Shown: piece by piece, positions 5,965 to 23,011 of the stretch
How the letters are laid out: every line of letters starts with the position of its first letter
Position numbering within the stretch: position 1 is the stretch's first letter
Source: an archaeon
GTDB taxonomy: Archaea; Thermoproteota; Nitrososphaeria; Nitrososphaerales; Gagatemarchaeaceae
Length of the DNA stretch: 36,204 bases
Reading direction: 5' to 3'
NCBI GenBank assembly: GCA_021791695.1
Contig: JAJYWC010000019.1
Coordinates: 1-36,204 of the forward strand
Translations under genes and position numbers: made by a program
The notes under the pieces: model-generated
What the model was told of the DNA's origin: nothing
Seen by the model: only the letters and a program-made list of their open reading frames with translations
Databases searched by the model: none

Positions 5965-6105
5965 TGGTGGGGACGGCCGGACTTGAACCGGCGGCCTACA
6001 GGTTTCTGCAGCTCCATTGGGAAATCATCCACGCGAGCGTGTCATCAAACCTATTGTAGTTTGACCACTGGAGCCTGTCGCCATACCTGGCTAGGCTACG
6101 TCCCC
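5965..6105 (-). tRNA. tRNA-Trp(CCA) with a 64-nt intron and encoded CCA
   Basis: Read on the minus strand. The acceptor strand GGGGACG (6105-6099) pairs with CGTCCCC (5975-5969), followed by discriminator A and an encoded CCA at 5967-5965. The D-arm is GCC...GGC, the T-arm is GCCGG-TTCAAGT-CCGGC, and the anticodon stem is ACAGG/CCTGT. The anticodon CCA (6071-6069) lies in loop CTCCAG|A. The intron (6067-6004) interrupts between positions 37 and 38, the standard archaeal site for bulge-helix-bulge splicing. Inside it is a 6-bp hairpin (6059-6064 with 6045-6050), a box-C-like TGATGA (6047-6042), a second GATGAT-type box (6030-6024) and TGGAGC (6016-6011), complementary to the anticodon loop. 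Its first 15 nucleotides are the attachment core of the adjacent element. Confidence 0.93.
6091..6105 (+). repeat. Attachment site at the tRNA side (15-bp direct repeat)
   Basis: CTAGGCTACGTCCCC is nucleotides 15 to 1 of tRNA-Trp read on the plus strand. The identical 15-mer recurs at 22357-22371 at the far end of the accessory block. The match stops exactly at tRNA nucleotide 1 (6106 is T, 22372 is C), so the repeat is a true recombination core rather than a second tRNA. Confidence 0.85.
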
Positions 6106-6138: not shown

Positions 6139-6179
6139 GAATCTGTCCCGATTCGTTTGCAAAAGGAGGCGATTGGTAG

Positions 6180-7547
6180 TTGGTGCTTCAGGCCCTGGTG
6201 GACGTGGGGATCGACGGATGGAAGTCGAGCTACGCCAGTGTAGACAACGTGCTCCGCCACCTTCAGCGGAAGTCCAGCGGCTACGGCGCGCCCAGCTACG
6301 CCAGCGTTGAGTGGTACGGCGCGATACTGAACGCCTTTTGCAAGTACGTCGGGAAAGATCCAGATCAGTTGGTATCCCTCCCCAAGAGCGAATTGGAGGA
6401 GGTTATTCACTCTTACCTTGATTCGGGGATTGCGAAGGGGCTCAGCAAGAAGACCGTGAAGAACAGGCGGAGCTGCCTCCTCATGCACTTCAAGAAGAAC
6501 GGGTACAGGGGAGACAGGGAGCTGGAGATCGAGGTATACCCGGTCCCAGCTAGATACAGGAAGATGCTGGAGTACATCCCGAGCTCGGCCGAGGTTCTTG
6601 CGATGGCGGACGCCGCCCGGTCCCTGAGGGACAGGGCGATGATACTCTGCATGTACACGAGCGGGCTGAGGGAGAGCACGGTGAAGGCGCTGCGCTACAA
6701 GGACGTGAGGCACGACTTGTCCTCAGACATCATCCTCGTCCCCGTGTATCCCGAGATGAAGCGCATCCACCACAAGGCGTGCAAGAACAACATCCCCTAC
6801 TACACCTTCTTCGACATAATCTCGACCGAGGCGCTGAAGTCCTACCTGAGGGCCAGGGAGGCGCAGTACGGCCCCATCGGGGACGAGGAGATACTCTTCG
6901 CTCCAGATGCCCGGGCCTCCCGGGTGAGCCCCGAAGTGGCGAAGTTCAAGGCACTGGCGAAGATGGAGGTAAACAGGATAGTGAAGAACTCCGCCAGGAA
7001 CGCGGGGCTGAAGGAGTGGAAGAACGTCCATCCGCACTCGCTCAGGAAGTCGTTCGAAGAGGCACTGAGGAGGCGAAGGCCGGACGGGTCCATGATGAAC
7101 GAGAAGGAGGTCGAGTTCCTCTTCGGGCACCTCCTAGCCGGGAGCCAGGACCCCTACTTCGGCTCGGGCGTGAGGGTGGAGGGGTCCACGATCAGCTTCG
7201 ACAGGACGATGGCCAAGAAGATACGCGAGGAGTACAGCACACTCCAGTTCTTCCCGGAGCGCAACCTGATCAACAGGGACGAGACGCTCGCGCTCTTCAA
7301 CAGGAGGTTCCTGAAGCTGTCCAACTGGACGGACGCGGAGATTGACGCGCTCGGTGACCTGAGCGAGCTCGAGGAGTCGAAGCTGCGGGAGCTTCTCGAC
7401 CGGAAGAGTAAGCAAAATCTTGGCCTAAACGGGAACACCCAGAAGGTCGTTCAGATGGGCGAGGTGAAGAGGTTCATCGAGGAGGGCTGGGAATACCTGT
7501 CGACGCTTCCGTCGGGGGAGGCGGTCATAAGACTCCCGCCACGCTAA
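6180..7547 (+). CDS. Tyrosine recombinase / integrase
   Basis: A 455-aa integrase. The catalytic set is visible: Arg in SGLRES (R164), the HSLR box (H286 and R289), His in FGHLL (H317) and the nucleophile Tyr in DPYF (Y326). The N-terminal 130 residues form a SAM-like DNA-binding core-binding domain. About 125 residues follow the tyrosine, a longer tail than in minimal archaeal integrases. The start is TTG at 6180, about 10 nt after a strong Shine-Dalgarno sequence (AAAGGAGG, 6162-6169), which is unusual in this mostly leaderless genome. The gene is intact and not split by the attachment site, so it is not an SSV-type integrase disrupted on integration. It begins 75 nt inside the tRNA-proximal end and presumably catalyses integration and excision of the island. 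Confidence 0.93.
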   Translation: MVLQALVDVGIDGWKSSYASVDNVLRHLQRKSSGYGAPSYASVEWYGAILNAFCKYVGKDPDQLVSLPKSELEEVIHSYLDSGIAKGLSKKTVKNRRSCLLMHFKKNGYRGDRELEIEVYPVPARYRKMLEYIPSSAEVLAMADAARSLRDRAMILCMYTSGLRESTVKALRYKDVRHDLSSDIILVPVYPEMKRIHHKACKNNIPYYTFFDIISTEALKSYLRAREAQYGPIGDEEILFAPDARASRVSPEVAKFKALAKMEVNRIVKNSARNAGLKEWKNVHPHSLRKSFEEALRRRRPDGSMMNEKEVEFLFGHLLAGSQDPYFGSGVRVEGSTISFDRTMAKKIREEYSTLQFFPERNLINRDETLALFNRRFLKLSNWTDAEIDALGDLSELEESKLRELLDRKSKQNLGLNGNTQKVVQMGEVKRFIEEGWEYLSTLPSGEAVIRLPPR

Positions 7548-7586
7548 AACAGTCGACTGCCAGAAGAAAACATCTTTGATGCTAGT

Positions 7587-9143: not shown

Positions 9144-9185
9144 TGACATCAACACGTACCTAAAGCATAAGGTGTAAGAAGCAAC

Positions 9186-9810
9186 TCATTTTTCCTTGTA
9201 TCGACTTTCCATCCTGGTAAGGTCTTCGCGAAATCTTTCCATCGTTTCATCGTTCCTCTTCTTCCTGATAGCCTGAAGAGAGTTAACCGAACCTATTACC
9301 TCGTCCAAGATCGTTCTTGCCAAGGATTTGTGCGCCTCCAATCCGTCGATGGTTTGTTTTCTAAAGTCCAAAGGCAATGAGTAGTGTAGTGAGAGTATGC
9401 AGCACCCTCGTACTTCAAGTGACTTCTGACCTGCGCCTTCCACTTATTCAATTCAATCTTGTTTGCCTCTCGACTGCTCTCGATAGATGTATAAATCCAC
9501 CCCTTGTCAAGGCGGATTCGCAGGCAACCCTCTAGTACTGTTTGTAGATCAGGTTCATTCGCAGTCTGCTTGATGTAATACCGCAATATCTTACCCCCTG
9601 CCGACCGTTTATCTGTAGCGCTCTTGCCAGATGCATGATGGAGAGTTCTTCGATTCGTTGAAGTTTCTCGTAGCCTCCCAAAAACAAACGCCTAATTCCT
9701 ATCGAAGGAACAATATGAACTTTCGAGCATTCCCCTCTCCCATCGTGTTTCCCCTCCCCTATCTCCCGTGCAACCTCCGAGTGGCGCGGTGAGATTATGT
9801 TTCTTGTCAT
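9186..9810 (-). pseudogene. Frameshifted unknown gene, third in the CHAT operon
   Basis: Three overlapping frames read as one protein if two shifts are allowed. The first runs from ATG 9810 through YEKLQRIEELSIMHLAR. The second continues from about 9625 with ATDKRSAGGKILRYYIKQTA to about 9390. The third carries DFRKQTIDGLEAHKSLAR to the stop at 9186. The joined product would be about 200 aa, helical and charged, and I do not recognise it. Its first codon overlaps the stop of the upstream gene by 4 nt (ATGA at 9807-9810), so it was part of the operon when intact. Either it has decayed or the assembly has indel errors here; the sequence alone cannot decide. Confidence 0.5.
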
Positions 9811-10319
9811 CTTCGAAGCCGTTTCTCTATCTCGTTGTAGAAGAGGAACTTGGCGACTTTACCCTCGGCCTTTGGCATATCCTCAAGGTCCTTCTCGTAT
9901 TCGCGGTCGGCTAGATGAATCAGCTGTCTTCCCTTCCCCCGCCTAAACCATGAGAATCTAGTCCTCTGTACAATGCGCTTGTACCTCTCTGGGTCGACAA
10001 ACAGATTTTTTCCAAATCGCAAAGTAAAGCAAATCAAATGCCGGCGTCCGCGTCGCTTTTCATATCCCAGTAGTTCTCCCTCACGCACAAGAAAATACTC
10101 CTTCGTATCGGTCCTAAGGACCATATGGACTCTTAACGGAAACTTGTTTTTGGCAAGCACTTTGGAGGCTTCTCTCGACAGACATATGGCAGGATAATGC
10201 CAGGTACGTGGTTCGCTCTCCGACTCTACTAACTCCCTTTTTGCCTTCCGATATGTCCAAGGACTCTTGACAATCCGCATAGTTCGGATTATGAGAATCG
10301 GAGATTGGTTTCCTGGCAC
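9807..10319 (-). CDS. Unknown protein, partner of the CHAT protease
   Basis: A 170-aa basic protein rich in R, K and aromatic residues, with no transmembrane helix and no motif I can name. The start is uncertain: ATG 10319 overlaps the CHAT gene by 31 nt, while ATG 10280 (product begins MRIVKSPWTY, 157 aa) falls 8 nt after the CHAT stop. Its own stop overlaps the start of the next gene by 4 nt. Tight linkage to a caspase-like CHAT protease suggests it is the protease's substrate, activator or effector. That role is inferred from context only. Confidence 0.6.
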   Translation of the reverse strand: MPGNQSPILIIRTMRIVKSPWTYRKAKRELVESESEPRTWHYPAICLSREASKVLAKNKFPLRVHMVLRTDTKEYFLVREGELLGYEKRRGRRHLICFTLRFGKNLFVDPERYKRIVQRTRFSWFRRGKGRQLIHLADREYEKDLEDMPKAEGKVAKFLFYNEIEKRLRR

Positions 10320-10948
10320 CTGCCATCACCACGAACAATTGTGTGCGTCTTCATGCTATTAGCGTCCAGACAGACGTAAGCGAGATCGTCGAAACCGCGC
10401 AAAGATCCGGCAGAATGGAATGCCTCCACGATTTTGAAATGGCGTCCGAGAAGAAAATCGTAAAAGAGCATCGAGAACGTAAGGGCGGTCTCAAAGCTCA
10501 CTTCATTCTTAGGCGCGATTACGAATTTCTCACCTTTTCTTCCCTTGCAGAGAGATGCAAACGCGGTTATACTAGTTGGTCCTCCTGCAACCAAACAGGC
10601 ATTGAGAAATAGAAGTTTGGTCGCTGAAGGAAATTCAACCTCGACGAATCGGTCATACTGGAACTTCTTTCCTCTCCTTAAGCTGAGCTCTCTATGATTC
10701 CCGTGACACGAGACATGGATGTACCTGTGACCCTTCTCAAGTAGCTCTTTGAGATGCCGATCGGACTTAGCCTCGATAGGAGCTTTCGGGATGTTTCTAC
10801 GGAGTCGGAGGCCGCTGGCATTAACAAAGAATTCGATGCTAGTTTGTAGGGCCTCGCACTCTTTCAACTTGTTCTTCTTTTGGAAGGCTTGGTCAGTTGC
10901 CTCCACAAGGAGCAGGTGACTCGTGTCCAATTCAACATAGAGACACAA
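10289..10948 (-). CDS. CHAT-domain (caspase-like) protease
   Basis: A 219-aa protein consisting almost entirely of a CHAT domain. The catalytic dyad is recognisable: His in YIHVSCHGNH (H82) and Cys in LLFLNAC (C118), each at the end of a hydrophobic strand, as in the clan CD (caspase/separase) fold. CHAT proteases in prokaryotes act in immunity and programmed death, for example cleaving gasdermins or serving CRISPR type III-E. No gasdermin, TPR or CRISPR gene is nearby. The start is TTG at 10948; an internal GTG is possible because an AT-rich element lies close upstream (about 10955-10966). It leads an operon with a 170-aa unknown protein and a frameshifted third gene. Confidence 0.82.
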   Translation of the reverse strand: MCLYVELDTSHLLLVEATDQAFQKKNKLKECEALQTSIEFFVNASGLRLRRNIPKAPIEAKSDRHLKELLEKGHRYIHVSCHGNHRELSLRRGKKFQYDRFVEVEFPSATKLLFLNACLVAGGPTSITAFASLCKGRKGEKFVIAPKNEVSFETALTFSMLFYDFLLGRHFKIVEAFHSAGSLRGFDDLAYVCLDANSMKTHTIVRGDGRCQETNLRFS

Positions 10949-11054
10949 CCAGAGTTGTAATTAAGGCTCATAGCGAAAGCCGACCGCTTCGCCGCCGACG
11001 CGAGCACATCGGCAAGGCCAAGGATTCCTGAATGAGACAGAATATAACGACGGA

Positions 11055-11246
11055 CTACTTTTTCAGTTCGCGGTACAGCAGCTTCGAATACATTCTAACC
11101 TTGATTGTTACTTCTTCATCGGGTACGAAATCGGGCTCCGAAAGGATGAGGTCTCTCAGCACGCTCGAAGGAGGCAGCTTGGTCCTCGCCAGCTTCTTCA
11201 GCTCGACAAGGCTGACGACGGCCTGCGGGTGGTCTGAGGCTTGCAC
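11055..11246 (-). CDS. Small conserved-looking protein downstream of the wHTH gene
   Basis: A 63-aa protein with a compact patterned sequence: KLPPSSVLRDLILSEPDFVP followed by a hydrophobic and basic helix ending in LLYRELKK. Short proteins with a similar LPPSS-LRDLILSEPD core are familiar to me from archaeal mobile elements, but no function is established. It starts inside the end of the preceding winged-helix gene (overlap 11198-11246), so the two are probably translated together. It might be a regulator's partner or antitoxin-like; this is a guess from size and coupling. Confidence 0.55.
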   Translation of the reverse strand: MQASDHPQAVVSLVELKKLARTKLPPSSVLRDLILSEPDFVPDEEVTIKVRMYSKLLYRELKK

Positions 11247-11962
11247 CGCGAATCGTCCTTAGGGGCATATTCCAGATTTAAGGCAGGACCGGCTAATCTC
11301 TTGCATGAACCTTCCGACGCGTGTTCAGCCAGCAGTTCTTCGAGCCACTGTCTCACCAGACCTGCCCTCTCCGGTCCCAGCTTCTCGACGAGGTCGACGG
11401 CAGTCTCCTCAAGCTCCTCCTCGACGAGCGCCGCCCTTCCACGGCCAGTAATCATGTACGCCCCGTCTCGGTCCTTCCCGATGAGACCAGCGGCGAGCAG
11501 CTGTTTCAGCGAGACGTAGATCGTCTTGTCCGGCCTCCCGAGCTCCCTCTGGATCTCCGAGTAGCGCGCTGGCCCTTCCTTCACGAGCCGCAAGATTGAA
11601 CTCTTTACGGTCCTTCCGGATGAGCGCGTTCTTTCCCGAAGAGCGCGATTCCGGCTCTGCCTCGGACACCAGCTAACCACCGCATCAATGCTCTCCAACT
11701 CCTCCGCGATTGCCAGTCGCTCAGTTTCTGCAGCAGGATCTCCGAGGGCGTGGTGCAGGGCCAGCCTGCTCAAGTGAGCGAGGATTCTTTTCTTGACGGC
11801 CTGGACGGAGCAATACCCTCCCTCGAGCACGAGGGCCTTCTTCCTTGAATCCTCATCGCTTGCCGGTCCGGTGTAGACTCTCTTCTTCCGCTTTGCCGCC
11901 GTGTCGTAATAGCAGAAGTAGAGGTAGCGCTTGCCGTCGACAAGGAGCGTCTCTATGGGCAT
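11198..11962 (-). CDS. Winged-helix transcriptional regulator
   Basis: A 254-aa protein. Residues about 118-180 form a winged helix of the ArsR/PadR-like type (SSILRLVKEGPARYSEIQRE, a recognition-helix region, then a wing with DGAYMITGRGRAAL). The N-terminal 35 residues (GKRYLYFCYYDTAAKRKKR) resemble the short basic beta segment seen at the start of some archaeal phage integrases and may touch DNA. The last 40 residues are low-complexity. A TATA-like CCTTTAATG on the minus strand (about 11984-11992) lies about 27 nt before the ATG at 11962, so it is probably leaderless. It likely regulates element genes, its own operon first. Confidence 0.7.
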   Translation of the reverse strand: MPIETLLVDGKRYLYFCYYDTAAKRKKRVYTGPASDEDSRKKALVLEGGYCSVQAVKKRILAHLSRLALHHALGDPAAETERLAIAEELESIDAVVSWCPRQSRNRALRERTRSSGRTVKSSILRLVKEGPARYSEIQRELGRPDKTIYVSLKQLLAAGLIGKDRDGAYMITGRGRAALVEEELEETAVDLVEKLGPERAGLVRQWLEELLAEHASEGSCKRLAGPALNLEYAPKDDSRCKPQTTRRPSSALSS

Positions 11963-12331
11963 TCGTCACATTAGGTCAGGCGCGCATTAAAGGAACTGGT
12001 CGGTGATTGAGGTGGGTAGCGCGTCGGCCACTTCGGCGAGCGGATAATCATCTCGGCGGAGGCACAATGAAACCCCAGAGAATCACCTATTTCTTCAGCG
12101 AAGTTTAGCTAATCCTGGTCAACAGACATAACGATAGGTTGCCGAAGTACCTGTCAGATCAAATGTTCAACGGACTTGCTGAATGGTTGAGGGACGAAGG
12201 AATTGAATGTAACACAACGACTCATTAAACCCACTGCGTGCGAATTAATCAGAAAGAACTCGTTCTCGATTACATCAAGAAGTCTCGGTTTCAATAATAG
12301 TTTGAGTTCTCCCTAGGACTTCGCTCCAGTC
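11963..12331. other. Intergenic region with a decayed ORF interrupted by TAG
   Basis: An ATG at 12067 opens a frame that meets TAG at 12106-12108 and then continues in the same frame, protein-like, to TAA at 12226-12228. The second part includes LPKYLSDQMFNGLAEWLRDE. It looks like the remnant of a small gene. Nothing else is recognisable. Confidence 0.4.
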
Positions 12332-13417
12332 TCACCCATGCACTAAGATTAGAAGGAAAATTGAGAGGCCGACAACGAATACAAGCAATTTTCCAGCCGC
12401 AGCCCTTCTCTCATAAGCGATACTCTCTCCCGTTGTGAAATAGTCAAATCGTTCGGAGAACCCTGCTACGTGACCTCTGCTGAGATTTCCTGCGACTCGT
12501 CCGAGTTCATTAGAGAGTCTCACCAGAGCGGCCTCCACACCGGTTCTCCCAGATCCCATTCCTCGCCGATGACATCTGATTGAATCTGCCGCAAATTCTA
12601 TCAGGCACGCCGCAAGAATTGCATATCCAACCCCGTAGATTAGCCTCGGCTCTAACACTCCAGCTACGGCGAAAGCCAAGGCCCCCAGCACGGCGGCCTC
12701 AGACATATTTGGGAAATTCCGATACCTGTACTCCTTGTACATCGCAGGTAGTCTGGAATCGCCGTAAGCCCAACGCGCGAATCTCTTGTATTGGCGAGAT
12801 CCGTTGTGCCACCAGGGATGTTCCACCACAGCCTCAGGGACCGACAGAAACCTCTTGCCGGTGTGCTTGACGATTCTGAGGCAGAAGTCGATGTCCTCGC
12901 CACCACCGTGGCGGGGAAAATCCTGCGAGAACCGTACGGGCCCCATGGCGACTCTTCGGACCAGAAGATTGGCAGTCACGCCCCAAGACACCGTTTGGTG
13001 CGTCTTCGCGATGCCCTGAAACGTGAGGATATCGCTCGCGACGACCCCCCGCTCGAACGAGTTTACGGGGTCCGGAAGTCTCGTGAGCCCGACGAAGCCG
13101 ACTGCATCCGGCCATCTCTCAATCGCGAGTCTGTATGACTCGATGAGGGAAGGCGACGGGATGACATCGTCATCGATGAACAAGATGTAATCGCCGGAAC
13201 CCGCCTCCACGCCCGCATTCCGCGCGGCGGAAGCTCCTGCACCACCACTCTGGACGACCTTCACATTGGCACCCTTGGCAGCCGCGAAGGTGGCCGGCGG
13301 TTTGTCCGTAACCACGAAGAAGTTTAGCATCGTTCCCTCCGGTGCATGCAGGTTCAGTATCGATTGGAGATTGGTTGGCGACCCGCCGGTCGGGATGACC
13401 ACGTCAAAGCTGATCAT
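12332..13417 (-). CDS. Family 2 glycosyltransferase with C-terminal membrane segments
   Basis: A 361-aa GT-A fold enzyme. The N terminus is the nucleotide-sugar binding start (SFDVVIPTGG), DDD at residues 82-84 (FIDDDV) is the metal/UDP motif, and GGGEDIDF (171-178) holds the acceptor-site ED. Hydrophobic segments at about 244-280 and 344-359 would anchor it to the membrane, with the catalytic domain on the cytoplasmic side. It transfers a sugar from a nucleotide donor, probably to a lipid-linked or S-layer glycan. It overlaps the upstream radical SAM gene by 14 nt, so they form an operon. Donor and acceptor cannot be read from the sequence. Confidence 0.88.
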   Translation of the reverse strand: MISFDVVIPTGGSPTNLQSILNLHAPEGTMLNFFVVTDKPPATFAAAKGANVKVVQSGGAGASAARNAGVEAGSGDYILFIDDDVIPSPSLIESYRLAIERWPDAVGFVGLTRLPDPVNSFERGVVASDILTFQGIAKTHQTVSWGVTANLLVRRVAMGPVRFSQDFPRHGGGEDIDFCLRIVKHTGKRFLSVPEAVVEHPWWHNGSRQYKRFARWAYGDSRLPAMYKEYRYRNFPNMSEAAVLGALAFAVAGVLEPRLIYGVGYAILAACLIEFAADSIRCHRRGMGSGRTGVEAALVRLSNELGRVAGNLSRGHVAGFSERFDYFTTGESIAYERRAAAGKLLVFVVGLSIFLLILVHG

Positions 13418-14387
13418 GGACGGATTCCACGGCTATCCATTCGTGAGACAGATTTTGGGTGCAGAAGCAGTGGCTGCCCACCTTGCACCCGAGCTTCACA
13501 CTTTCGAACTTTGCTCGCACAGCTTCGACCTCTTCGGAGGAGATTGACTGGAAGGAATCGCCGAATGATGTGGAATCGACCCAGTAGCATATGCTGAGTT
13601 TCCCCGCAGTTGCAATGGCTTGCCTAGGGCCGAGTCCGCACGATTCCGGCGCCAAGGCCTCGCCGGAAATCAGTCTTGCGATGTCTTTCCAGAACGAAGG
13701 GGGATTCGTCAGAGGGGAGTCCAGGCTGGGAATGGCCTCCGCAACTCGAAGGAGTCCGGGTACGTCTCGTTCCGTCAACAGAAGATCAGGGGCGCTTCTA
13801 GACACGTGGCCGTCATCGAAGACCGGCTGAAATTTTACGAAATCGACGCCCAGGGACCTCCCGAACTTTAGAATTCGCTCTACTGTCTTCAGGTTTGCGG
13901 TCGGGTGGGAGGCCACGGAGTTTATGCCCAGTTCGAACTCTCTGGGGAGGTCCGAAATCCGCTCCAGGTTTGAGATGACCTGCTCTAGCAGTTGTTTCGG
14001 AGTGTCTCGGGTGATCAATGCTGTTTCCGGGTCCAACGAATCCAACGATACCGTGACGCCTGTCGCACCGTTGTCGAGGAGGCGATGCAACTCTTTCTCG
14101 TCGAGCCCGTATCCGTTGGTGATGACTATGACGCTCTCGACCAGCCGGCCGTAATGCTGTAAGATCGTCTCCAGTTGGGGATGAATTCTTGGTTCACCTC
14201 CTGACAGAACGACCCTCTGTACGCCTAGCGCTCTAATCGTTTGCTCCGGTATCAGCACCTCTTTCAGTCCCATATGGACGCCCTTTGGATTGGATTTGTT
14301 GCCCCATTGGCAATACCTGCAAGTGGCATTGCAGCGATAGGTGACGTCGACGACCATCGTGTTCAGCGTGTCCAGCAGGCTGGTCAT
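13404..14387 (-). CDS. Radical SAM protein with C-terminal cysteine cluster
   Basis: A 327-aa radical SAM enzyme. The cluster motif C-x3-C-x2-C is at residues 19-26 (CNATCRYC), and SGGEPR (62-67) binds SAM. The C-terminal region contains further cysteines (CGLG, CYW, then CKVGSHCFC), consistent with an auxiliary iron-sulphur cluster of the SPASM/twitch kind. I chose ATG 14387 although the frame is open to 14591: the CxxxCxxC motif sits at its usual distance from this start, and a TATA-like element (about 14413-14424) is about 31 nt upstream. It pairs with the glycosyltransferase downstream, so it may modify a sugar or a small peptide for the cluster; the substrate is unknown. Confidence 0.85.
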   Translation of the reverse strand: MTSLLDTLNTMVVDVTYRCNATCRYCQWGNKSNPKGVHMGLKEVLIPEQTIRALGVQRVVLSGGEPRIHPQLETILQHYGRLVESVIVITNGYGLDEKELHRLLDNGATGVTVSLDSLDPETALITRDTPKQLLEQVISNLERISDLPREFELGINSVASHPTANLKTVERILKFGRSLGVDFVKFQPVFDDGHVSRSAPDLLLTERDVPGLLRVAEAIPSLDSPLTNPPSFWKDIARLISGEALAPESCGLGPRQAIATAGKLSICYWVDSTSFGDSFQSISSEEVEAVRAKFESVKLGCKVGSHCFCTQNLSHEWIAVESVHDQL

Positions 14388-14410
14388 CGGGATCTGATGC
14401 CGGAGAGGAG

Positions 14411-14425
14411 GAATTAAGTATAGCA
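14411..14425. promoter_or_regulatory. Shared TATA-like element of the divergent glycan operons
   Basis: The AT-rich GAATTAAGTATAGC sequence lies about 30 nt from the radical SAM start (minus, 14387) and about 25 nt from the epimerase start (plus, 14443). One element could serve both leaderless transcripts, so the two halves of the glycan cluster are probably co-expressed. Confidence 0.5.
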
Positions 14426-14442
14426 CTCTGAAATCGTCTAGA

Positions 14443-15411
14443 TTGGGGGACGAGCGAACGAAGGCGCTGATTCTCGGGGCGGCCGGCGTGCTGGGGTCCT
14501 CGCTCGTCGATAGGTTAGTCGAGAAGGGAATCGACGTAAGAGCGATGGACATCTGCAGGATAGACGAGGCGTGGAGACTGGCTGAGAACAAGCCCCTAAT
14601 TGATTATCGATGGAAGGCATCCTCCGACATTGCGAAGCCCGACCTTGACGGGGTGAACGTAGTGTTCGATGCGGGGATAGGGGTGGCAGACAGGCCGCTG
14701 GGAAACGCGAGCCCAGAATACACGACGATAGTCAATGTGATGCCAGCAATCAGGCTGTTAGAGGCGGTGCGGCTCCTTCCGAAGGCGAGGAGACCCACCT
14801 TGATCTATCCGAGCTCGTTCAACGCTCTCTACGGGCACCCGTATGGATCGAAGTACGTCCCAAGCATGCTGCCAAACCCATCGTCTGTGTACGGCTGGAC
14901 CAAGGCCAGCGTCGAACTTCTGTACTCTACGTACAGGCGAGCATACGGGCTTCCAACTATCATTTGCAGGGTTGGAAGCGGCTACGGTCCCAAGATGCGA
15001 AGCGACGAGCTGCCTGCCAGATTGATCTTGAGCGTCCTGAGCAAGAAGGGGATGGTTGTCAGGTCTCCCGACGCGAGGAGGTTATGGACCTACGTCGGGG
15101 ATATCATCGACTTCTATGGCCGACTCGTCGAACATCTGGACGATTACACCGGACAAACGATTCATTGCGCAGGCAATGTAGGCAACGAGACAGTGACCAA
15201 CATGCATCTAGCCCGCATGGTCATGGATCTCTCAGGTCAGTCGGTAGTCATGAAGAGGGGAGGATACGAGGCCGGGGAGCTGATAGACGGAAAACCGATT
15301 TCGTTCGAGGTCGGTGGCGATTCTCCCATCTGGCGACCCAGACATACGCTGAGTCAGGGCCTCACCAAGACGCTCAGTTGGTTTAAGAAGAACAGGTGGA
15401 GATACGAATGA
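14443..15411 (+). CDS. NAD-dependent epimerase/dehydratase (extended SDR)
   Basis: A 322-aa extended short-chain dehydrogenase. The Rossmann glycine motif is GAAGVLG (residues 12-18), the catalytic YxxxK is Y150-K154 in YGWTK, and the PSS segment before it supplies the active-site Ser. Enzymes of this group act on nucleotide-activated sugars (4-epimerases, 4,6-dehydratases and relatives). The start is TTG at 14443. It is divergent from the radical SAM/GT2 pair and followed by a phosphatase and a methyltransferase, which fits sugar-nucleotide supply for a surface glycan. The exact reaction is not determinable here. Confidence 0.87.
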   Translation: MGDERTKALILGAAGVLGSSLVDRLVEKGIDVRAMDICRIDEAWRLAENKPLIDYRWKASSDIAKPDLDGVNVVFDAGIGVADRPLGNASPEYTTIVNVMPAIRLLEAVRLLPKARRPTLIYPSSFNALYGHPYGSKYVPSMLPNPSSVYGWTKASVELLYSTYRRAYGLPTIICRVGSGYGPKMRSDELPARLILSVLSKKGMVVRSPDARRLWTYVGDIIDFYGRLVEHLDDYTGQTIHCAGNVGNETVTNMHLARMVMDLSGQSVVMKRGGYEAGELIDGKPISFEVGGDSPIWRPRHTLSQGLTKTLSWFKKNRWRYE

Positions 15412-15442
15412 TGCGGCGTGGGACCGAAGAGTCGATGTTGCA

Positions 15443-16129
15443 TTGACAGAAAAACTCTCGGATAGCAAGAGACTGCTTCACTTCTGTGTGGCATTCACAC
15501 CAAGCACAAGGAAGATCGTTGTCATCAGACACTCGGAACGGATATCGTTTTATGGTGTTCCGATGGAGCAGTGGGACAGTATCGGAATCACCGAGAACGG
15601 GGCCAGCGCCGCCAGGCGACTCGGAAGGTCCCTGGCAGGCGTAGCAGGCTTCCCGCGCGTCAACGTAGTCAGCTGGGGTCAAAGCAGGTGCGCCGAAACG
15701 GCCACCGCCGTTGCGGAGGGATTGACCGAAGGAGGGGCCTCAGTCAGCGCCGCGGCTACCCTCAACTTGAACGGTCCGATTTCCGACCACTCGGCATACA
15801 AGGAAATGATAACGTCTAACCGATGGCAGGAGGTGCTGGAATTGTGGCAACGAGCGGCGAGCACCAAAGGTAGCCTAACACCCATCGCAGAGTACGCCTC
15901 TTCATCGTTTACAGAGATACTAGCTTCAACCACGAGCCCACCGAACCAGCTCACACTCATCGTCACGCACGACCTTCACATTCTACCTCTCGCCCGGCAC
16001 GCGGCCGGAACCAAGGTTCCCCTTCCAGACTACTTGGACGGCTTTGTTATCAGCGAGCGAGAAGGCGAATTTCTTTTCGGTTACGGCGAGTTCATGAAAT
16101 CCATAGATTTGGATTCCCTGACACATTGA
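15443..16129 (+). CDS. Histidine phosphatase superfamily protein
   Basis: A 228-aa protein with the signature of the phosphoglycerate-mutase-like phosphatases. IRHSER (residues 28-33) carries the phospho-accepting His at 30, SRCAET (81-86) has the second Arg, and VTHD (174-177) has the second active-site His. Most small members dephosphorylate sugar phosphates, nucleotides or phosphoproteins. The start is TTG at 15443, 31 nt after the epimerase stop. The stop overlaps the next gene's TTG (TTGA at 16126-16129), so the three are one operon. In this setting it may hydrolyse a sugar-phosphate intermediate; that is inference. Confidence 0.82.
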   Translation: MTEKLSDSKRLLHFCVAFTPSTRKIVVIRHSERISFYGVPMEQWDSIGITENGASAARRLGRSLAGVAGFPRVNVVSWGQSRCAETATAVAEGLTEGGASVSAAATLNLNGPISDHSAYKEMITSNRWQEVLELWQRAASTKGSLTPIAEYASSSFTEILASTTSPPNQLTLIVTHDLHILPLARHAAGTKVPLPDYLDGFVISEREGEFLFGYGEFMKSIDLDSLTH

Positions 16130-17430
16130 GCCTAACTAGCACGCTGCGAGAAGCCGAGAAAAGCTTCGCCGACGACATGCCGCTTGAGTCTCTGCGGCAC
16201 CTTGACAGACTCGCGGAAACCAAGAACGTCTCAATTCTCTTGCTCAGAGCGCTGGTTCGCGAGAGCGTCAACGACCTGACCGGAGCTTTCTCTGATTTAC
16301 AGTCGAAGAACTTGAGTCCCCATTTCATGATAATCAAAGCACGCATCCTCGCGAAGCTGGGATTCGGTGACAAGGCAATAGCTCTTCTGCAGGAGGTATT
16401 GACGAAAGTCGACCAAGAAATCCGCCCAACCTTGGCCGAAGAAGCATTGGGGATTGGCGGCCGCAGGTTCGATTTGCGCCTGATGGGAATTGGTCTGAAG
16501 AAGAATCAAGTCTCCATGTCTGCACCGCGCAACGTCGGAGCGATTCTCGCGCACCTGGGTGCACTCGCCGAGCTCGATGAAAGAGACCTCCAGGTGTTCA
16601 GCGGGCAGCTTGGATCGCGGGAGTTATCTCGTTACCGCGAGCTGAAGACCATCGACGAACTCCGCCACATTCTTGATGCAGGCCCGCAAATCACCGCAAT
16701 CCGGAAAGCCATATTCGGAATACGCGGGTGGCTCTCTTTTGACGAAGCTAGGCTTCTTGCGGCGTTATCCTCGCGCGTTCCCCGTCAGCTCGCGATTGTC
16801 GAATTGGGTTCATTCTTCGGGAGGTCGACAGTCGCTCTATCCTGTGGGCTAAAGGATATTGGCGTCGCAAGGATCCACGCGGTAGACCCGCACAAGGGGC
16901 TGGCTGGAATATTTGAAGGGAGCACTCTCGATCCTTTCTTGAAGAACCTCGAATCCAGACGCGTCGGAAGGAAAGTGAGAGTGCACGTGTCTACGTCGGT
17001 GACCTGCGCCCGAAGCTGGAATGGAGGGCGAATCGGGATGCTTTTCATAGATGCCCGCCATGACACAGATTCGGTGCGGAGTGACTTCGAAGCATGGTTT
17101 CCGGCCATGACGAGCACTTGCTACGTGGCATTTCACGATGTAACGCAACCGGGCCCAAACGCGGTCGTGAGGGACCTTCTTTACTCCCGTGAACTTCGTC
17201 CACTAGGACTTCGCGACAGCACCTTCGTTTTTCAGGTGTCCAGCTCTCGGTTGGAGCCTCATCGGACTAGACTTGCTGACGAGTGGGACAAGTATCTACA
17301 GTCGCTCCACGCTGACTACGACACTTGGGTTGAACTACAGCGCTCGAAATTGAGGCTGGAGACGCTGCAACTTTTCGAGGATGCGACACGGCAGCGTCGC
17401 CATCTCACTCAACCGTCCTGCGCGGATTGA
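16126..17430 (+). CDS. SAM-dependent methyltransferase with helical N-terminal domain
   Basis: A 434-aa protein. Residues about 220-370 form a class I methyltransferase of the family-24 kind: motif I is VELGSFFGRST (225-235), the ribose-binding acid is in HAVDPH (D254), and LFIDARHD and FHDVTQPG mark the later strands. The first 200 residues are helical, with a TPR-like pattern in the first 100, possibly for substrate or partner binding. Family members often methylate sugars or lipid-linked glycans. It is translationally coupled to the phosphatase by a TTGA overlap and ends the plus-strand glycan operon. Substrate unknown. Confidence 0.8.
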   Translation: MSLTSTLREAEKSFADDMPLESLRHLDRLAETKNVSILLLRALVRESVNDLTGAFSDLQSKNLSPHFMIIKARILAKLGFGDKAIALLQEVLTKVDQEIRPTLAEEALGIGGRRFDLRLMGIGLKKNQVSMSAPRNVGAILAHLGALAELDERDLQVFSGQLGSRELSRYRELKTIDELRHILDAGPQITAIRKAIFGIRGWLSFDEARLLAALSSRVPRQLAIVELGSFFGRSTVALSCGLKDIGVARIHAVDPHKGLAGIFEGSTLDPFLKNLESRRVGRKVRVHVSTSVTCARSWNGGRIGMLFIDARHDTDSVRSDFEAWFPAMTSTCYVAFHDVTQPGPNAVVRDLLYSRELRPLGLRDSTFVFQVSSSRLEPHRTRLADEWDKYLQSLHADYDTWVELQRSKLRLETLQLFEDATRQRRHLTQPSCAD

Positions 17431-17624
17431 AGACGTCTGTCCTTGACCGGGGGGGGGGAAATCGAAAGTGATCCAGATTCGCGATATTGCGGCTTAAGAG
17501 CGTCCATGACATTTCTAGGTAGGCAAATGCCATGGGAAGGCAGGTTGCTGTCCATGAATTCGCTAACTCGTCCTTGGAGTTCCAGCCAGTGCCGGCGTTA
17601 AAAGCAGTCCAGCTCTCCTCCCGC

Positions 17625-17810
17625 ATGACCGGACCCGGACAGGCAGAACTTTGCGAGCGCTGCGGCTCTCCCCTCGACGAGAGCGGGCTGTGCTGGTCGT
17701 GCAGCGGCGGTCGCTTCGATCGCCTTCGTTTCCCGAGTCGGTTAAGGAAGGCGGGCCTTACAGCATTTCAACAAGGTAATATATCAAGCAACCCATGTAA
17801 ATTCCCTTGA
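17625..17810 (+). CDS. Small zinc-ribbon protein coupled to the GHKL ATPase
   Basis: A 61-aa protein with a C-x2-C-x9-C-x2-C zinc ribbon (CERCGSPLDESGLCWSC, residues about 10-26) and a basic tail. The frame is open from 17532, but I chose ATG 17625 because a TATA-like GTTAAAAG (about 17594-17602) sits about 27 nt upstream. Its TGA stop overlaps the TTG start of the ATPase gene (TTGA, 17807-17810). That coupling makes it a likely first gene of the operon and a possible nucleic-acid or protein-binding accessory. Confidence 0.55.
   Translation: MTGPGQAELCERCGSPLDESGLCWSCSGGRFDRLRFPSRLRKAGLTAFQQGNISSNPCKFP
17776..17786 (+). promoter_or_regulatory. TATA-like element before the GHKL ATPase
   Basis: GGTAATATATC is centred about 26 nt upstream of the TTG start at 17807. 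It is the strongest AT element here, so the ATPase can also be transcribed without the zinc-ribbon gene. Confidence 0.55.
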
Positions 17811-19477
17811 GCGCGGAGCAATCAGCTAAGCCAATCGAGACTGGCGAGATAGAGGTTCAGGTTTCTCGGGATATTGTCAGCCACCTGAGTTTCGGAATCT
17901 ACAAGAACTTCGCTCGAGCAATTAGAGAGCTCATTTCGAACTCTTACGATGCACGGGCCACGGAGATTCGCATCGGCTTAGATCTCGAGTCGAATCCTCC
18001 CAGAGTGGTCGTAAGGGACAATGGTGTTGGGATGGATAAGAATGACATGGAAAACAGATTGTTCAGATTAGGAAATGTGACGCCTTTTACCGACAATTTA
18101 GACGATTTGGGGAGGAAGCGGATAGGCCAGTTTGGAATCGGTTTCCTGTCAACCTTTCCATATTGCGAAAGAGTAGTAGTCACAAGCAAAAAAGAGAAAG
18201 AGGATACCATAATCGAAGTTTCAGCTGAAACGAGTGCCTTTTTCCAAGGAGAAACCTTCAACGTTACTGACTACAAGGCGCCTTTCTCCAAATACAACAG
18301 TGACCTCCCAATTGAGAAGGGAGAAACCATTGTTACTCTTGAGAGCATTAAGCCCCACATTGTTAAGCAATTGCAAAGAACGAGAAGTCAGAGGAGCAAA
18401 GCCAGCATTGAGAGTTTCGATGGCTATGAAAAGTTCAAGTGGACGATAGCGCAGTTCGCTCCAATCTCTTTCCCGCCGGACAGGACCGATTTGAGGGAAT
18501 ACTTCGAAGTCAAAGGGCGTACCCCACTGAGGGTCTGGTTAGACGGCGAAGAGCTATTCAGAAATGTGCCTGCAGACGCCGAAATACTTCAGAAGGGCGA
18601 ACAATCCTTCGATAATATTGACGTCAAGTATGTCATCATGACGCCAAATAAGCCAGTTCAACCTGAAGAAGCCAGAGGGCTGCAGATTCGAGTTTGTGAC
18701 GTAGGAATCGGATTGCCGACGGACTTTGATGTAATCAAACTCCGGTCCAGGAACCTTGGCAGGCTTTACTACCTGTGCGGAGAGGTCCAGATACTCAAAG
18801 GAATAGTACCTGTCAAAATCGACAGAGACAGTCTATCGTGGACAGAGTCAGTCGAGAAGATGGAAATTTTCTTCAGAGATCAGCTCACAAAGCTCAATGA
18901 AGTGCTGGAGAAAGAGGCGATAACAGACAAGGCTGTAAGGTCCGAGATTGAGAAGCTCCAGGATCCGGAGCCACTTCTCGAAGAGCTCGAATCGCTTCAG
19001 CTCATCAGATACCCAAAGAGCAGATTGAGAATGAAGAAAACAGCGAAGCACACAAAGCAGCGTGTTCAACCAGAACCCGCAAAAACACTGGAGAGCGTCT
19101 TCAAAAACCGGGGTTTTGAGGTTATTGCCGATGATGATGTCGCTTCAGCCGACACCTTAGCCATCGAGGTTCGCGCAAACGAGAAGCAAGTCATAATTCG
19201 AGAAAACCATCCGAGCTTCAAGGAATACGTAACGGTCCTTAACGAGTCTTTTGAAGTGAACTATGAAGATTGGAAAGCAACCCCCTCCTTAGATTCTGCT
19301 TGCAAAATTCAAGGGACGAAGGTTACCTTTAATCCCAATCACCCGGTTTTCCAACTAAACCTCGATGTCGAGGTGCTCAAGAAACTAATCGTAGGAGTGA
19401 TTATTACCGTCGACAAGAACCCGCGACGGTCTGAACTTTGTGATCAATTCTACCGGCTTCTCATGGACATGTTCTGA
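17807..19477 (+). CDS. GHKL (Hsp90/MORC-like) ATPase
   Basis: A 556-aa protein with an N-terminal Bergerat-fold ATPase. The N box is ELISNSYDA (E41, N45), the G1 box is DNGVGM (71-76) and the G2 box is GQFGIGF (107-113). The domain is followed by a middle region resembling the S5-like transducer of Hsp90/MutL/MORC proteins, and by a C-terminal half with a basic linker (about 400-425) that I do not recognise. Such ATPases dimerise on ATP binding and clamp DNA or clients; related MORC/MutL-type forms are known in restriction-modification contexts. The next gene starts 3 nt downstream, forming an operon with two unknown proteins. Its base composition is AT-richer than the glycan cluster. A defence role is inference from gene order. 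Confidence 0.85.
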   Translation: MSAEQSAKPIETGEIEVQVSRDIVSHLSFGIYKNFARAIRELISNSYDARATEIRIGLDLESNPPRVVVRDNGVGMDKNDMENRLFRLGNVTPFTDNLDDLGRKRIGQFGIGFLSTFPYCERVVVTSKKEKEDTIIEVSAETSAFFQGETFNVTDYKAPFSKYNSDLPIEKGETIVTLESIKPHIVKQLQRTRSQRSKASIESFDGYEKFKWTIAQFAPISFPPDRTDLREYFEVKGRTPLRVWLDGEELFRNVPADAEILQKGEQSFDNIDVKYVIMTPNKPVQPEEARGLQIRVCDVGIGLPTDFDVIKLRSRNLGRLYYLCGEVQILKGIVPVKIDRDSLSWTESVEKMEIFFRDQLTKLNEVLEKEAITDKAVRSEIEKLQDPEPLLEELESLQLIRYPKSRLRMKKTAKHTKQRVQPEPAKTLESVFKNRGFEVIADDDVASADTLAIEVRANEKQVIIRENHPSFKEYVTVLNESFEVNYEDWKATPSLDSACKIQGTKVTFNPNHPVFQLNLDVEVLKKLIVGVIITVDKNPRRSELCDQFYRLLMDMF

Positions 19478-19480
19478 TGT

Positions 19481-20203
19481 ATGTCCAACGTCCCTGTTGA
19501 CTATAGGTCACAACTTCTTTCAGGTCTCTGGATTCCAAACATTCTGAAGTTTAGTGACATGTTAGGACCACGTACAGGGAACAAACACTACAAAGTTCTC
19601 TCGCTAGCATCCACAGATAATGAACATCTTGAGGTAAGAAACTTGGTTCAGAATGGACTTGTATTCAAGAAGAAAGACATCCATCTTTGGACATATACTC
19701 ACCTAAAGGCCCTCAGGCTCGTCGACAGTGGATGTCGAGTCATGGCCCCTTCAAGATACGAGAACACTTTAACTCAGAATCCTCAATCGGTTGAAGCCGA
19801 ATTCCCTTTTCAAATAATAAACCTGGATTTTGTATCGCAAGACATGTCTTTAGAGTCAGGTAGGGCTGAGCGTGAAATTGAGAGCATAGAGGCAACGTTT
19901 CGACTGCAATCGGAAAACGCCCAAAAGCCACATTGTGGATTTTCAATCGCCTACACAACACTGCTTGACAGTCTTCCAATCAATTGTTATGACTTGATTC
20001 AAAGACTAAATTCGCACCACCGAGACGGCTGGTCTGGAATTCTTACTAAGGACTTTCCGCCTGACGCGCTACCGTCCGCAGTCAAGACAGAGACGATTCA
20101 ACGGTTGTTGACCGTAATGGCGGTGAAATATGGTTATCATGTACTGGGTTTCGAAGGATTGCTCGTAGGAGATGTCTATTCGATTGTTGTCGGAGCCAAA
20201 TAA
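19481..20203 (+). CDS. Unknown 240-aa protein of the GHKL operon
   Basis: A 240-aa alpha/beta protein starting with ATG 3 nt after the ATPase stop and ending directly before the next ATG. A central strand, FPFQIINLDFVSQD (about residues 108-121), is followed by a helix and then by CGFSIAYTTLLD. This resembles the acidic-strand layout of degenerate Rossmann-like (methyltransferase-type) folds. No SAM-binding glycine motif is visible, so I do not claim enzymatic activity. The zero-gap arrangement strongly suggests it forms a complex with its neighbours. Confidence 0.65.
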   Translation: MSNVPVDYRSQLLSGLWIPNILKFSDMLGPRTGNKHYKVLSLASTDNEHLEVRNLVQNGLVFKKKDIHLWTYTHLKALRLVDSGCRVMAPSRYENTLTQNPQSVEAEFPFQIINLDFVSQDMSLESGRAEREIESIEATFRLQSENAQKPHCGFSIAYTTLLDSLPINCYDLIQRLNSHHRDGWSGILTKDFPPDALPSAVKTETIQRLLTVMAVKYGYHVLGFEGLLVGDVYSIVVGAK

Positions 20204-20938
20204 ATGAGTCCAGGAAAGACCAAGAGCGTCGATCTCGAGAAGACGCGCAAGACACTAAACAAGAATCTCAACTCGACAGTCAAGAATTTCAAGAGCGACT
20301 TGGATTCAATGATGGAATCGATACAATCAATCAGTCATTGGTCCAATGTGTTGCAAGACACGAATTCATTGGGATTGGTCAACGAGATCTTCATGGACTC
20401 ATACATGTCGATTGATTTCTCGAGTATGGCTCTTTACAAATACGCGGACACCGCGTTGCGTTCTGCATTAGAGAATTCACTGAATTGGATATACTTCTCA
20501 AATCATCCCGTGGAGTTCGGATGGTGGAAAACAGGCGACGAGTGGTTCCTTCCTATGGGCAGCCATCCCTGGGGAAGAGGATACGAATATTTCAAGCTAC
20601 TAATAGGTGATACGCGCGTCGCTCCGATATTTGACAAGCCCCAGCAAGGGAGAAAAACAGTCTCCGTCGCGGGAGTATATTCCGAGCTCTCAAAATCTAG
20701 TCACAGCAATAGCCTAAAGATGCAGACTGCCGGAGGGGAGCTTTCACCGACGTATGATGCGGGAAGGTTCAAAGAATTCAGAGATAGGATTCGCGACGTA
20801 TTGAGTCTGGTTAACGCTATAATGATCCTTGTATTTCAAGATGAATTCGGCAAGATGAATAAGTTGGACAAAAAAGGAGTCACTTCGGTGCTCTTACCAG
20901 AGCACGAGGCTATCCTGAAGTCTATGCGCCGGCTATAG
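20204..20938 (+). CDS. Unknown 244-aa helical protein of the GHKL operon
   Basis: A 244-aa mostly helical protein that starts at the base after the previous stop codon. A notable segment is YADTALRSALENSLNWIYFSNHP (residues about 78-100; an ALRSALE core followed by aromatic residues and NHP). It recalls HEPN-like helical bundles of defence loci, but the strict R-x4-6-H motif is not present. No membrane helix is evident. The family is not recognised. It ends the tight three-gene run; about 100 nt of non-coding sequence follow. Confidence 0.62.
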   Translation: MSPGKTKSVDLEKTRKTLNKNLNSTVKNFKSDLDSMMESIQSISHWSNVLQDTNSLGLVNEIFMDSYMSIDFSSMALYKYADTALRSALENSLNWIYFSNHPVEFGWWKTGDEWFLPMGSHPWGRGYEYFKLLIGDTRVAPIFDKPQQGRKTVSVAGVYSELSKSSHSNSLKMQTAGGELSPTYDAGRFKEFRDRIRDVLSLVNAIMILVFQDEFGKMNKLDKKGVTSVLLPEHEAILKSMRRL

Positions 20939-21040
20939 GTCTTGCAGCATTCTACGGAATCATTGAAGCACCGTATGTATCAAGGATAGAAGGAAGAAAG
21001 GCTTCGTGCGGCACTCATGAAGCAATGAAGCAACTAAGCA

Positions 21041-21262
21041 ATGCTTAATGATGCCACCTCAAATGCTGAGACAGGAGTCAGTTTGGGTAAGAGGAAACAT
21101 ACGATAATCATCAGCGAAAAGCTCGATGACCAGATCAAGACATACATCAAAGACAGAGCAGTACAGATAATCGACAGCGGCGATAACATCCCCAGCAAGT
21201 CCCAGCTCTTCGAAGAACTGCTTACGAAAGGATTGCAGGCGACTAAGGAAGAAGGGAAATGA
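21041..21262 (+). CDS. Small RHH-like DNA-binding protein
   Basis: A 73-aa protein with a short strand (HTIIISEKLDDQIKTYI) followed by two helices, the general shape of ribbon-helix-helix regulators. It overlaps the DNA methyltransferase start by 4 nt (ATGA, 21259-21262), so it is translationally coupled to it. It probably acts as a controller or specificity partner for the methyltransferase. The RHH call is based on pattern only. Confidence 0.55.
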   Translation: MLNDATSNAETGVSLGKRKHTIIISEKLDDQIKTYIKDRAVQIIDSGDNIPSKSQLFEELLTKGLQATKEEGK

Positions 21263-22263
21263 GAAATCACGAACCCAAGACTGCCGAGTACTTAGTCCGT
21301 AAAACCGCGCCGTATTATCACACTGTCAAAGGAGCCGCTTACTTGGGTGACGCTCTACAGCTCCTTGAAACTGTCCGAGATGAGACCATAGATCTAATTG
21401 TTACTTCGCCTCCCTTTGCTTTAGTATTCCAAAAACGCTACAAATTGGCACCCGATTTTGTCGATGCCCAACATTATCTAGATTGGTTTATGCCAATTGC
21501 GCGAGAGTTTCATAGAGTGCTCAAAAAAGACGGCAGCCTCGTTCTTCACCTTGGCGGTTCCTGGAACCCGGCTTATCCAACCAAGTCCTTGTATAACTTC
21601 GAAGTGCTTACGGAACTCTGCAAAAATGACTATTTCTCATTGGCGCAGGATTTTTACTGGTTCAATCCTGCCAAGATGCCGTCACCAATCGAGTGGACCA
21701 ACGTGAGACGCATTCGTGTTAAAGACGCGGTTGAACCAATTTGGTGGTTATCCAAGGATTCCAAAGGGAGAACAAAGGCGAGGAACACCCGCGTCTTGAT
21801 AGAATATACGAAGAGCATGCTCAAGCTACTTGAGCGAGGATCTTACAGCTCCGGGCAGCGACCATCCGGCTACAATATTTCACGCGCAGGCTTTCTTCAT
21901 AAGAACCGTGGCGCGATTCCGCCTAACCTAGTTCCTTATCCGAATATGCTCCCTTTCTCGAACACTGAGTCCAATGGAGCATATCTCTCAAACTGTAAGA
22001 AATATGACATGGTCCATCCCGCGAGATTCCCTATAATGGTTCCTGAATTCTTCATCAGATTCCTAACCACTAGGAAATCTCAAGTCGTTCTTGACGCGTT
22101 TGCTGGCAGCAATAGCACCGGATATGCCGCGGAAAAATTAGGCCGAAAGTGGCTAGCCTTCGAGAAGTCTGAAGAATATCTGAAAGGCTCTATGTTTCGC
22201 TTCTTCGGTCCGAGAGAAGTAGAGAAAATGTGGTCAAAAGACCGTGTTCGAAGTGGGGCATAA
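21259..22263 (+). CDS. DNA methyltransferase, N4-cytosine type
   Basis: A 334-aa DNA methyltransferase. The catalytic motif IV TSPPFAL is at residues 49-55, and the SAM-binding motif I DAFAGSNSTG is at 279-288. Motif IV before motif I is the beta-type order, and SPPF is typical of N4-cytosine enzymes such as the PvuII group. It should methylate a specific DNA sequence using SAM. No classical restriction endonuclease gene sits beside it. The upstream GHKL operon, or the PD-(D/E)XK-like gene elsewhere in the island, are candidate partners; otherwise it is an orphan. It is the last gene before the right attachment site. Confidence 0.9.
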   Translation: MRNHEPKTAEYLVRKTAPYYHTVKGAAYLGDALQLLETVRDETIDLIVTSPPFALVFQKRYKLAPDFVDAQHYLDWFMPIAREFHRVLKKDGSLVLHLGGSWNPAYPTKSLYNFEVLTELCKNDYFSLAQDFYWFNPAKMPSPIEWTNVRRIRVKDAVEPIWWLSKDSKGRTKARNTRVLIEYTKSMLKLLERGSYSSGQRPSGYNISRAGFLHKNRGAIPPNLVPYPNMLPFSNTESNGAYLSNCKKYDMVHPARFPIMVPEFFIRFLTTRKSQVVLDAFAGSNSTGYAAEKLGRKWLAFEKSEEYLKGSMFRFFGPREVEKMWSKDRVRSGA

Positions 22264-22333
22264 ATACGAAGGATACATCAACATACTGAATGACCGCCAT
22301 ACCTTACCTCAATCTGCCGGAAAATTGGGGCCA

Positions 22334-22346
22334 GGTATCGCGTACG
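22334..22346 (-). repeat. Right inverted arm of the attachment region
   Basis: GGTATCGCGTACG is the inverted counterpart (12 of 13) of 6107-6119. It lies 10 nt before the right core copy. A further ATACCTTACC at 22299-22308 repeats, in direct orientation, the sequence at 6115-6124. Confidence 0.65.
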
Positions 22347-22356
22347 CGAGGGCAGA

Positions 22357-22371
22357 CTAGGCTACGTCCCC
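22357..22371 (+). repeat. Far attachment site (copy of tRNA-Trp nucleotides 1-15)
   Basis: This is an exact copy of the 15-bp core at 6091-6105. The rest of a tRNA does not follow, so it is a recombination scar. Immediately outside it begin core genes on the minus strand. Confidence 0.85.
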
Positions 22372-22444: not shown

Positions 22445-23011
22445 CTAGACCTCTGCCGAGAGCATGTCTATCTTGGTGATTATACCTTCGACCTTGTCCC
22501 CGGTGGCTACCAGGATGGCCGGGACGAACTTGAAGAGAGAGAACAGTGCCTCCACGGGGGTGTCGGCACTCACGATGGGGAAGATCGGCTGCAGGAAGCC
22601 TGAGATTGGCTTGGTGAGGATGCTGCGGGGGTCGTCCAGCGTGCTTAGCAGCTGGACTATCTGGTTCTCCGTTATCGAACCGACGAGTCTGGTCCCGGAG
22701 TAGACAGGGAGCTGCGAGATCCCTCCCTTCTTCATGGCGTTGACGCTGTCGGAGATTGTCACCGTCGACTGGATGGAGATCACGGGCTTGGACATGACCT
22801 CCGATGCCTTCTTGCCCTCTATGCGAATCTGGGACCTCAGCGCTTCGGAGATGGATTTCATGGTGCTGAAGGAGGGGTCGACCAGGCCCGACTCGAGTTT
22901 CGCTATCAGGGACTGGCTGACGCCTGCCGCCCTGGCTAGCTCGGACTGGGTGATCCCTAGCTGGACCCGTATCTTCTTCAGTTGCTTCGGATCTATCGTG
23001 GAAACTGACAA
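22445..23011 (-). CDS. HTH-CBS domain transcriptional regulator
   Basis: A 188-aa protein with an XRE-type helix-turn-helix (residues about 9-62, LGITQSELARAAGVSQSLIA) followed by a pair of CBS domains (about 70-125 and 130-188). CBS pairs bind adenine nucleotides or SAM. Fusion to an XRE HTH is a common archaeal arrangement and suggests energy- or nucleotide-responsive transcription control. The gene lies just outside the island's right end and looks like a chromosomal core gene. An AT-rich element (near 23025-23040) precedes the start. Confidence 0.88.
   Translation of the reverse strand: MSVSTIDPKQLKKIRVQLGITQSELARAAGVSQSLIAKLESGLVDPSFSTMKSISEALRSQIRIEGKKASEVMSKPVISIQSTVTISDSVNAMKKGGISQLPVYSGTRLVGSITENQIVQLLSTLDDPRSILTKPISGFLQPIFPIVSADTPVEALFSLFKFVPAILVATGDKVEGIITKIDMLSAEV

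Follow-up and report, generated by a model that had tools for sequence, protein, structure and literature searches.

GHKL ATPases encoded beside DNA methyltransferases are a described theme, in which MORC and paraMORC proteins occur in prokaryotic restriction-modification (R-M) operons (Iyer et al. 2008, PMC2292703). The statement in an earlier note on this DNA, that GHKL/MORC-like ATPases neighbour methyltransferases in prokaryotic conflict systems, is supported by the paraMORCs. HEPN domains of the Ymh type are fused to paraMORCs and are found in R-M neighbourhoods (PMC3710099). VcSduA, a GHKL-nuclease, protects against phage (PMC12137116). The antiviral systems of archaea are poorly characterised (PMC12988326). 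The archaeal cassette analyzed here places a GHKL ATPase and two partner genes, together referred to as the trio, next to an N4-cytosine methyltransferase. We estimate at about 55% the probability that it is a mobile, methyltransferase-paired, paraMORC-type restriction or abortive defence module, whose effector and activity we infer.

The cassette and its island

The features of the window, the whole 36,204-nucleotide stretch of DNA that was analyzed, are listed in Table 1. The open reading frames (ORFs) and their tight junctions (TTGA, 3 nt, 0 nt and a 4-nt overlap) were all confirmed as the earlier note gave them. That note had not recorded a 102-nt gap between the genes of the 244-aa and 73-aa proteins, because of which the trio and the methyltransferase may be transcribed separately, as two units. 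The GC content at 18-22 kb is 0.44-0.47, below most of the window (0.47-0.63). The window derives from a Nitrososphaerota archaeon, and over 14.8 kb it is 99.96% identical to a contig of MAG FK2_bin.84.

Table 1 Features of the cassette and of the proposed island, in window coordinates.
Feature	Coordinates	Strand or location	Basis
Intron-containing tRNA gene, proposed integration target	5968..6105	-	Rfam RF00005, 54.2 bits
Proposed attL, CTAGGCTACGTCCCC	6091..6105	tRNA gene 5' end (last 15 bp on + strand)	Exact 15-bp direct repeat
Tyrosine integrase of the cassette-carrying island	6180..7547	+	PF00589, E 8e-11
61-aa zinc-ribbon-like ORF, probably non-member (remnant or spurious)	17625..17810	+	Sub-threshold DZR matches
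GHKL (Hsp90/MutL/MORC-like) ATPase, putative S5-type second domain	17807..19477	+	556 aa, TTG start
240-aa protein, distant PP_RS20740 (NF047698) relative	19481..20203	+	Homologue after G231 ATPase
Candidate effector of 244 aa, DUF5677-like with a HEPN-like residue pattern	20204..20938	+	hhalign, G231 homologue
73-aa protein, possible RHH regulator	21041..21262	+	ORF; 4-nt overlap with methyltransferase
N4-cytosine DNA methyltransferase, M.PvuII family	21259..22263	+	334 aa; 1boo match, motifs
Proposed attR, CTAGGCTACGTCCCC	22357..22371	~93 nt past methyltransferase stop	Exact 15-bp direct repeat

Two small ORFs had been assigned more than the searches bear out. A zinc ribbon had been counted as a cassette member, yet the ribbon matches are sub-threshold (E 0.003) and no counterpart lies beside the cassette of G231, a genome from another family of the same phylum. 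The GC content of this ORF by codon position is flat (0.55/0.61/0.56), whereas the neighbouring genes dip at position 2, and the ORF probably does not belong to the conserved set. The RHH label of the 73-aa protein was unsupported by profile searches. Since no convincing match was found in Pfam, NCBIfam, PHROGs or PDB, the label reflects the appearance of the sequence only. A relationship to the small ORF preceding a Methanothrix methyltransferase was rejected, the similarity not being above that of shuffles.

The cassette is probably the right-end cargo of a ~16.3-kb integrative island spanning positions 5968-22371, with boundaries proposed from a 15-bp repeat, no empty site being seen in a close relative. 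This is the sole direct repeat of at least 13 bp of the tRNA-end region in the window, against a chance expectation of ~0.005. The distance from the tRNA gene to a regulator gene (22445-23011) is 1.4-8.9 kb in three genomes of the same genus versus 16.3 kb here, and a search of five genomes of that genus did not find the ATPase. A tRNA 5' end is an unusual place for integration, used by 1 of 39 tRNA-targeting thaumarchaeal elements (PMC6563490). Other island genes encode a glycosyltransferase, an epimerase and a radical-SAM protein. The island also encodes UDG-like (8112-9143) and CHAT-like (10289-10948) proteins, both below Pfam cut-offs.

The methyltransferase and the GHKL ATPase

The methyltransferase matches PF01555 (E 7e-33) and the M.PvuII structure 1boo (E 1.7e-83). 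Its TSPPF and FAGSN motifs are present, and the N4C methyltransferase named in the earlier note is real and intact. The sequence is 48% identical to M.PvuII of pPvu1 and 52-55% identical to two other plasmid enzymes, its TSPPF and FxGSN motifs being intact. The enzyme is predicted to recognise CAGCTG, which occurs 10 times in the window versus 15.8 expected, a mild under-representation with counts too few for a conclusion. Most of the plasmid relatives examined adjoin ordinary restriction enzymes, the neighbours being R.PvuII together with a C-type regulator, an HNH endonuclease, or genes annotated as restriction endonucleases, whereas the window enzyme adjoins the ATPase trio. For the closest relative, from Methanothrix, no restriction enzyme is annotated immediately next to the gene within the stretch examined.

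The ATPase matches PF13589 (E 4.1e-21), and inspection and alignment bear out that its N, G1 and G2 boxes (ELISNSYDA, DNGVGM and GIGF) are intact. The region that follows the GHKL domain would be an S5-type domain, judging from its position and its alignment with other GHKL proteins. Over the GHKL domain, the best named relatives are the BbrUII/HgiDII restriction family, Hsp90/HtpG and MzaB. The closest NCBIfam match is NF050001 (BbrUII/HgiDII; E 1.4e-20), and the PADLOC profile REase_II and the MzaB profile align with E values of 6.9e-14 and 9e-11. Membership of the BbrUII/HgiDII family was rejected because the match is partial, covering residues 17-189 only with 73 bits against a family cut-off of 550 bits. 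Assignment to MORC proper was rejected as well, because the GhXhhpXXRhl motif of the S5 domain was not seen on inspection, where the region reads GLQIRVCDVGIG. Shedu membership was considered and rejected.

The earlier note stated that no classical restriction endonuclease is present, and none is recognisable among the cassette genes; neither is an SFII helicase nor an RE-fold, HNH or Vsr nuclease partner. The ATPase contains no recognisable nuclease domain. These results bear on the proposal that the trio is a multi-subunit endonuclease, a split HgiDII/BbrUII-type enzyme with a cryptic nuclease in the 240-aa protein or in the C-terminus of the ATPase. An M.PvuII-type methyltransferase would require a cognate cutter, its plasmid relatives adjoin PvuII, HNH or other endonucleases, and the GHKL domain is closest to the BbrUII/HgiDII family. 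However, that likeness covers residues 17-189 only, a conserved [DE]xK was seen in none of the three proteins, and the single GIY hit of the motif scan of the trio falls inside the GHKL domain. The 240-aa protein gave two loose HNH-like pattern hits, the histidines of which are not kept in its homologue. We consider a cryptic nuclease unlikely.

The two partner proteins

The 240-aa protein aligns with NF047698, the PP_RS20740 family, with 17.1 bits and E 0.0026, the family cut-off being 200 bits. In another genome (G301), the protein encoded immediately after a related ATPase matches the same family well (E 8.8e-20), also below the cut-off. The hhalign comparison of the 240-aa protein with this PP_RS20740-like protein yielded a probability of 62% and a score of 38.2 over 46 columns; the best of 100 shuffles scored 24.6 and ten decoys scored below 16. 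A mutation in PP_RS20740 has been associated with furfural tolerance (PMC9630843). The AlphaFold models of the 240- and 244-aa proteins were unusable, with pLDDT values of 42 and 35. A Foldseek search with the low-confidence model of the former listed many SAM methyltransferases, none of them significant (best E 0.12), which leaves a Rossmann or methyltransferase-like fold as no more than a lead.

Pfam gave no convincing match for the 244-aa protein. Its G231 homologue scores 14 bits against DUF5677, for which the Pfam gathering score is 27.1. A profile built from the two sequences aligns with six DUF5677 proteins with an hhalign probability of 62% and a score of 38.5, the best of 30 column shuffles reaching 20.2. 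The alignment is centred on a shared LRSxxE motif, downstream of which a Y-x-x-x-S-x-x-x-H pattern can be discerned by eye (LYRNLSGSIH in G231 and LYRNWSESAH in a DUF5677 protein). This pattern resembles that of HEPN domains, and DUF5677 is a family that we take to be part of the HEPN superfamily. With respect to the HEPN RX4-6H motif, the histidine is conserved, and the arginine seen in G231 (YRNLSGSIH) is a serine in the window protein (YSELSKSSH). The 244-aa protein is the leading candidate for the effector of the cassette. The earlier note had called both partners unknown proteins; they prove not entirely unknown, one being PP_RS20740-like and the other DUF5677-like, both remotely. Neither matches a well-known housekeeping family.

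Recurrence of the trio and relation to described systems

Homologues of the ATPase, the 240-aa and the 244-aa proteins are encoded in G231 in the order seen in the window, with junctions of 0 and 4 nt and amino acid sequence identities of 44%, 29% and 32%, respectively. Such in-order homology of all three proteins indicates that their grouping is more than chance. A D12-class adenine methyltransferase (PF02086) is convergent with the G231 trio, 13 nt away. The neighbourhood is conserved: two distant archaea have the trio with a DNA methyltransferase next to it, the methyltransferases being of different classes. The D12 pairing suggests that the trio and the DNA mark may be exchangeable. Because the trio recurs in G231 beside a different DNA-marking enzyme, it is probably a rare, swappable restriction-type module.

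The window and G231 contain the only complete copies found, and the trio is rare. Among 398 genomes of the phylum searched with the 240-aa protein, G231 gave the only true second hit; a match in G169 (E 0.005) is due to chance, inside an unrelated metabolic gene region. The 257 genomes of the class of G231 contained none besides G231, and the 400 genomes of the class of the window only the window's own ATPase. A Cloacimonadales bacterium encodes an ATPase homologue, 47% identical over 317 aa, in a contig that ends inside the gene; the 240-aa gene was not found in a search of the MAG, and this genome gave the only true hit among 125 of its phylum. Matches of the ATPase profile in G442 and G587 are located in unrelated genes. 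No relatives of the trio turned up in viral contigs, for which the middle domain of the ATPase, the alignments of the 240-aa and 244-aa proteins and the G301 PP_RS20740-like protein served as queries, nor in plasmids and phages by tblastn. Instead of antiviral defence, the trio could serve the island, in its stabilisation or in controlling integration or replication, as its place at one end of what is probably an integrative element would allow. Nonetheless, the stretches examined around the G231 trio and the Cloacimonadales ATPase show no evident integrase, and GHKL-methyltransferase pairing is a defence theme (PMC2292703), so that we regard such a role as very improbable.

More distant members of the ATPase superfamily, 24-28% identical to that of the window, occur at three loci (L009, L010 and L011) in other archaea of the same phylum. 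At L010:3617-6915, a GHKL ATPase of 591 aa, HTH-like in its N-terminal region, is convergent with a 486-aa N4/N6-type methyltransferase that has a long C-terminal extension. At L009:3449-5709 and its flanks, the GHKL ATPase lies within a Dnd/Pbe phosphorothioation locus (PbeC, DndA, DndD and DndC), directly preceded by a gene whose product weakly matches DUF4145 (HEPN). A 2024 reappraisal of Dnd systems (PMC10853773) does not contain the terms GHKL, MORC or HSP90. L011:3775-6410 is a two-gene pair, a GHKL ATPase followed by a PP_RS20740-like protein. The plasmid GHKL proteins matched by the window ATPase adjoin cytosine methyltransferases, Vsr, Z1 and PD-(D/E)XK proteins. A Rhizobium plasmid operon (L018:3018-10143) encodes Vsr, a cytosine methyltransferase, a GHKL ATPase, Z1 and a PD-(D/E)XK protein, and is MZA/paraMORC-like. 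The plasmid and archaeal contexts agree with the paraMORC theme (PMC2292703) and with the HEPN-paraMORC fusions (PMC3710099).

The recurring neighbours also bear on whether trio and methyltransferase belong together. The trio could be a module that works on its own in abortive infection or conflict, with the 73-aa/methyltransferase pair as a separate orphan methylation unit on the same island. The gap between them, the different class and orientation of the G231 methyltransferase, and the glycosyltransferase, epimerase and radical-SAM genes carried on the island are consistent with this arrangement. However, a DNA-modification gene adjoins the trio in both complete copies and lies near two of the distant ATPases too, and we consider independence somewhat unlikely.

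In the preferred reading, that of a methyltransferase-paired paraMORC-type module, the ATPase and its partners may, as the earlier note suggested, form an effector reading the methylation mark. Host DNA would be protected at PvuII-like sites by the methyltransferase, the ATPase dimer would shut on DNA as an ATP-driven clamp, as proposed for paraMORCs, and the 240-aa protein would act as adaptor or reader. When the complex encounters DNA that is unmodified or aberrant in another way, it would release the HEPN-like 244-aa protein, an effector that would act on nucleic acid, possibly RNA, with an abortive outcome. A tentative and rather less probable extension is that the trio is a three-gene GHKL module not described before, in which the ATPase as clamp, the PP_RS20740-like protein as reader and the HEPN-like protein as effector would act against unmodified DNA whatever the type of modification; hence it would pair with N4-cytosine or N6-adenine methylation, and its distant cousins with phosphorothioation. 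How GHKL/MORC proteins act beside DNA methylation is a question for prokaryotes and eukaryotic MORCs alike. If true, a minimal three-gene GHKL module with no recognisable nuclease and interchangeable methyltransferases would be a small system for the role of the ATPase in modification reading.

The cassette shares parts with several described systems. Only its GHKL domain resembles BbrUII/HgiDII, and the other ~480 positions of the NF050001 family are unmatched. The match to MzaB of MZA is likewise limited to this domain, and no Z1 or nuclease partners were seen in the cassette. From PvuII R-M it differs in having the ATPase trio instead of R.PvuII and an HTH-type C protein, despite the 48% identity between the methyltransferases. 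In the GHKL-Shedu protein VcSduA (paraMORC3), the GHKL ATPase is also proposed to control an effector, but there the PD-(D/E)xK domain is in the same chain, and the passages cited here mention no methyltransferase partner (PMC12137116). As in the Ymh HEPN-paraMORC fusions, a GHKL ATPase is coupled to a putative HEPN-type protein near R-M genes; here the genes are separate, the protein is DUF5677-like rather than Ymh, and a third protein lies in between. The majority of described paraMORC operons include a helicase, Vsr or RE-fold nuclease partner, whereas the window set does not. Its ATPase has no recognisable RE-fold (paraMORC3) or TIR (paraMORC4) extension and no MORC motif was seen, and its 240-aa and 244-aa partners are not described in PMC2292703. 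With the paraMORCs the window ATPase nonetheless shares an N-terminal GHKL domain followed by a probable S5-type region, a place beside a methyltransferase, and a sporadic, mobile occurrence.
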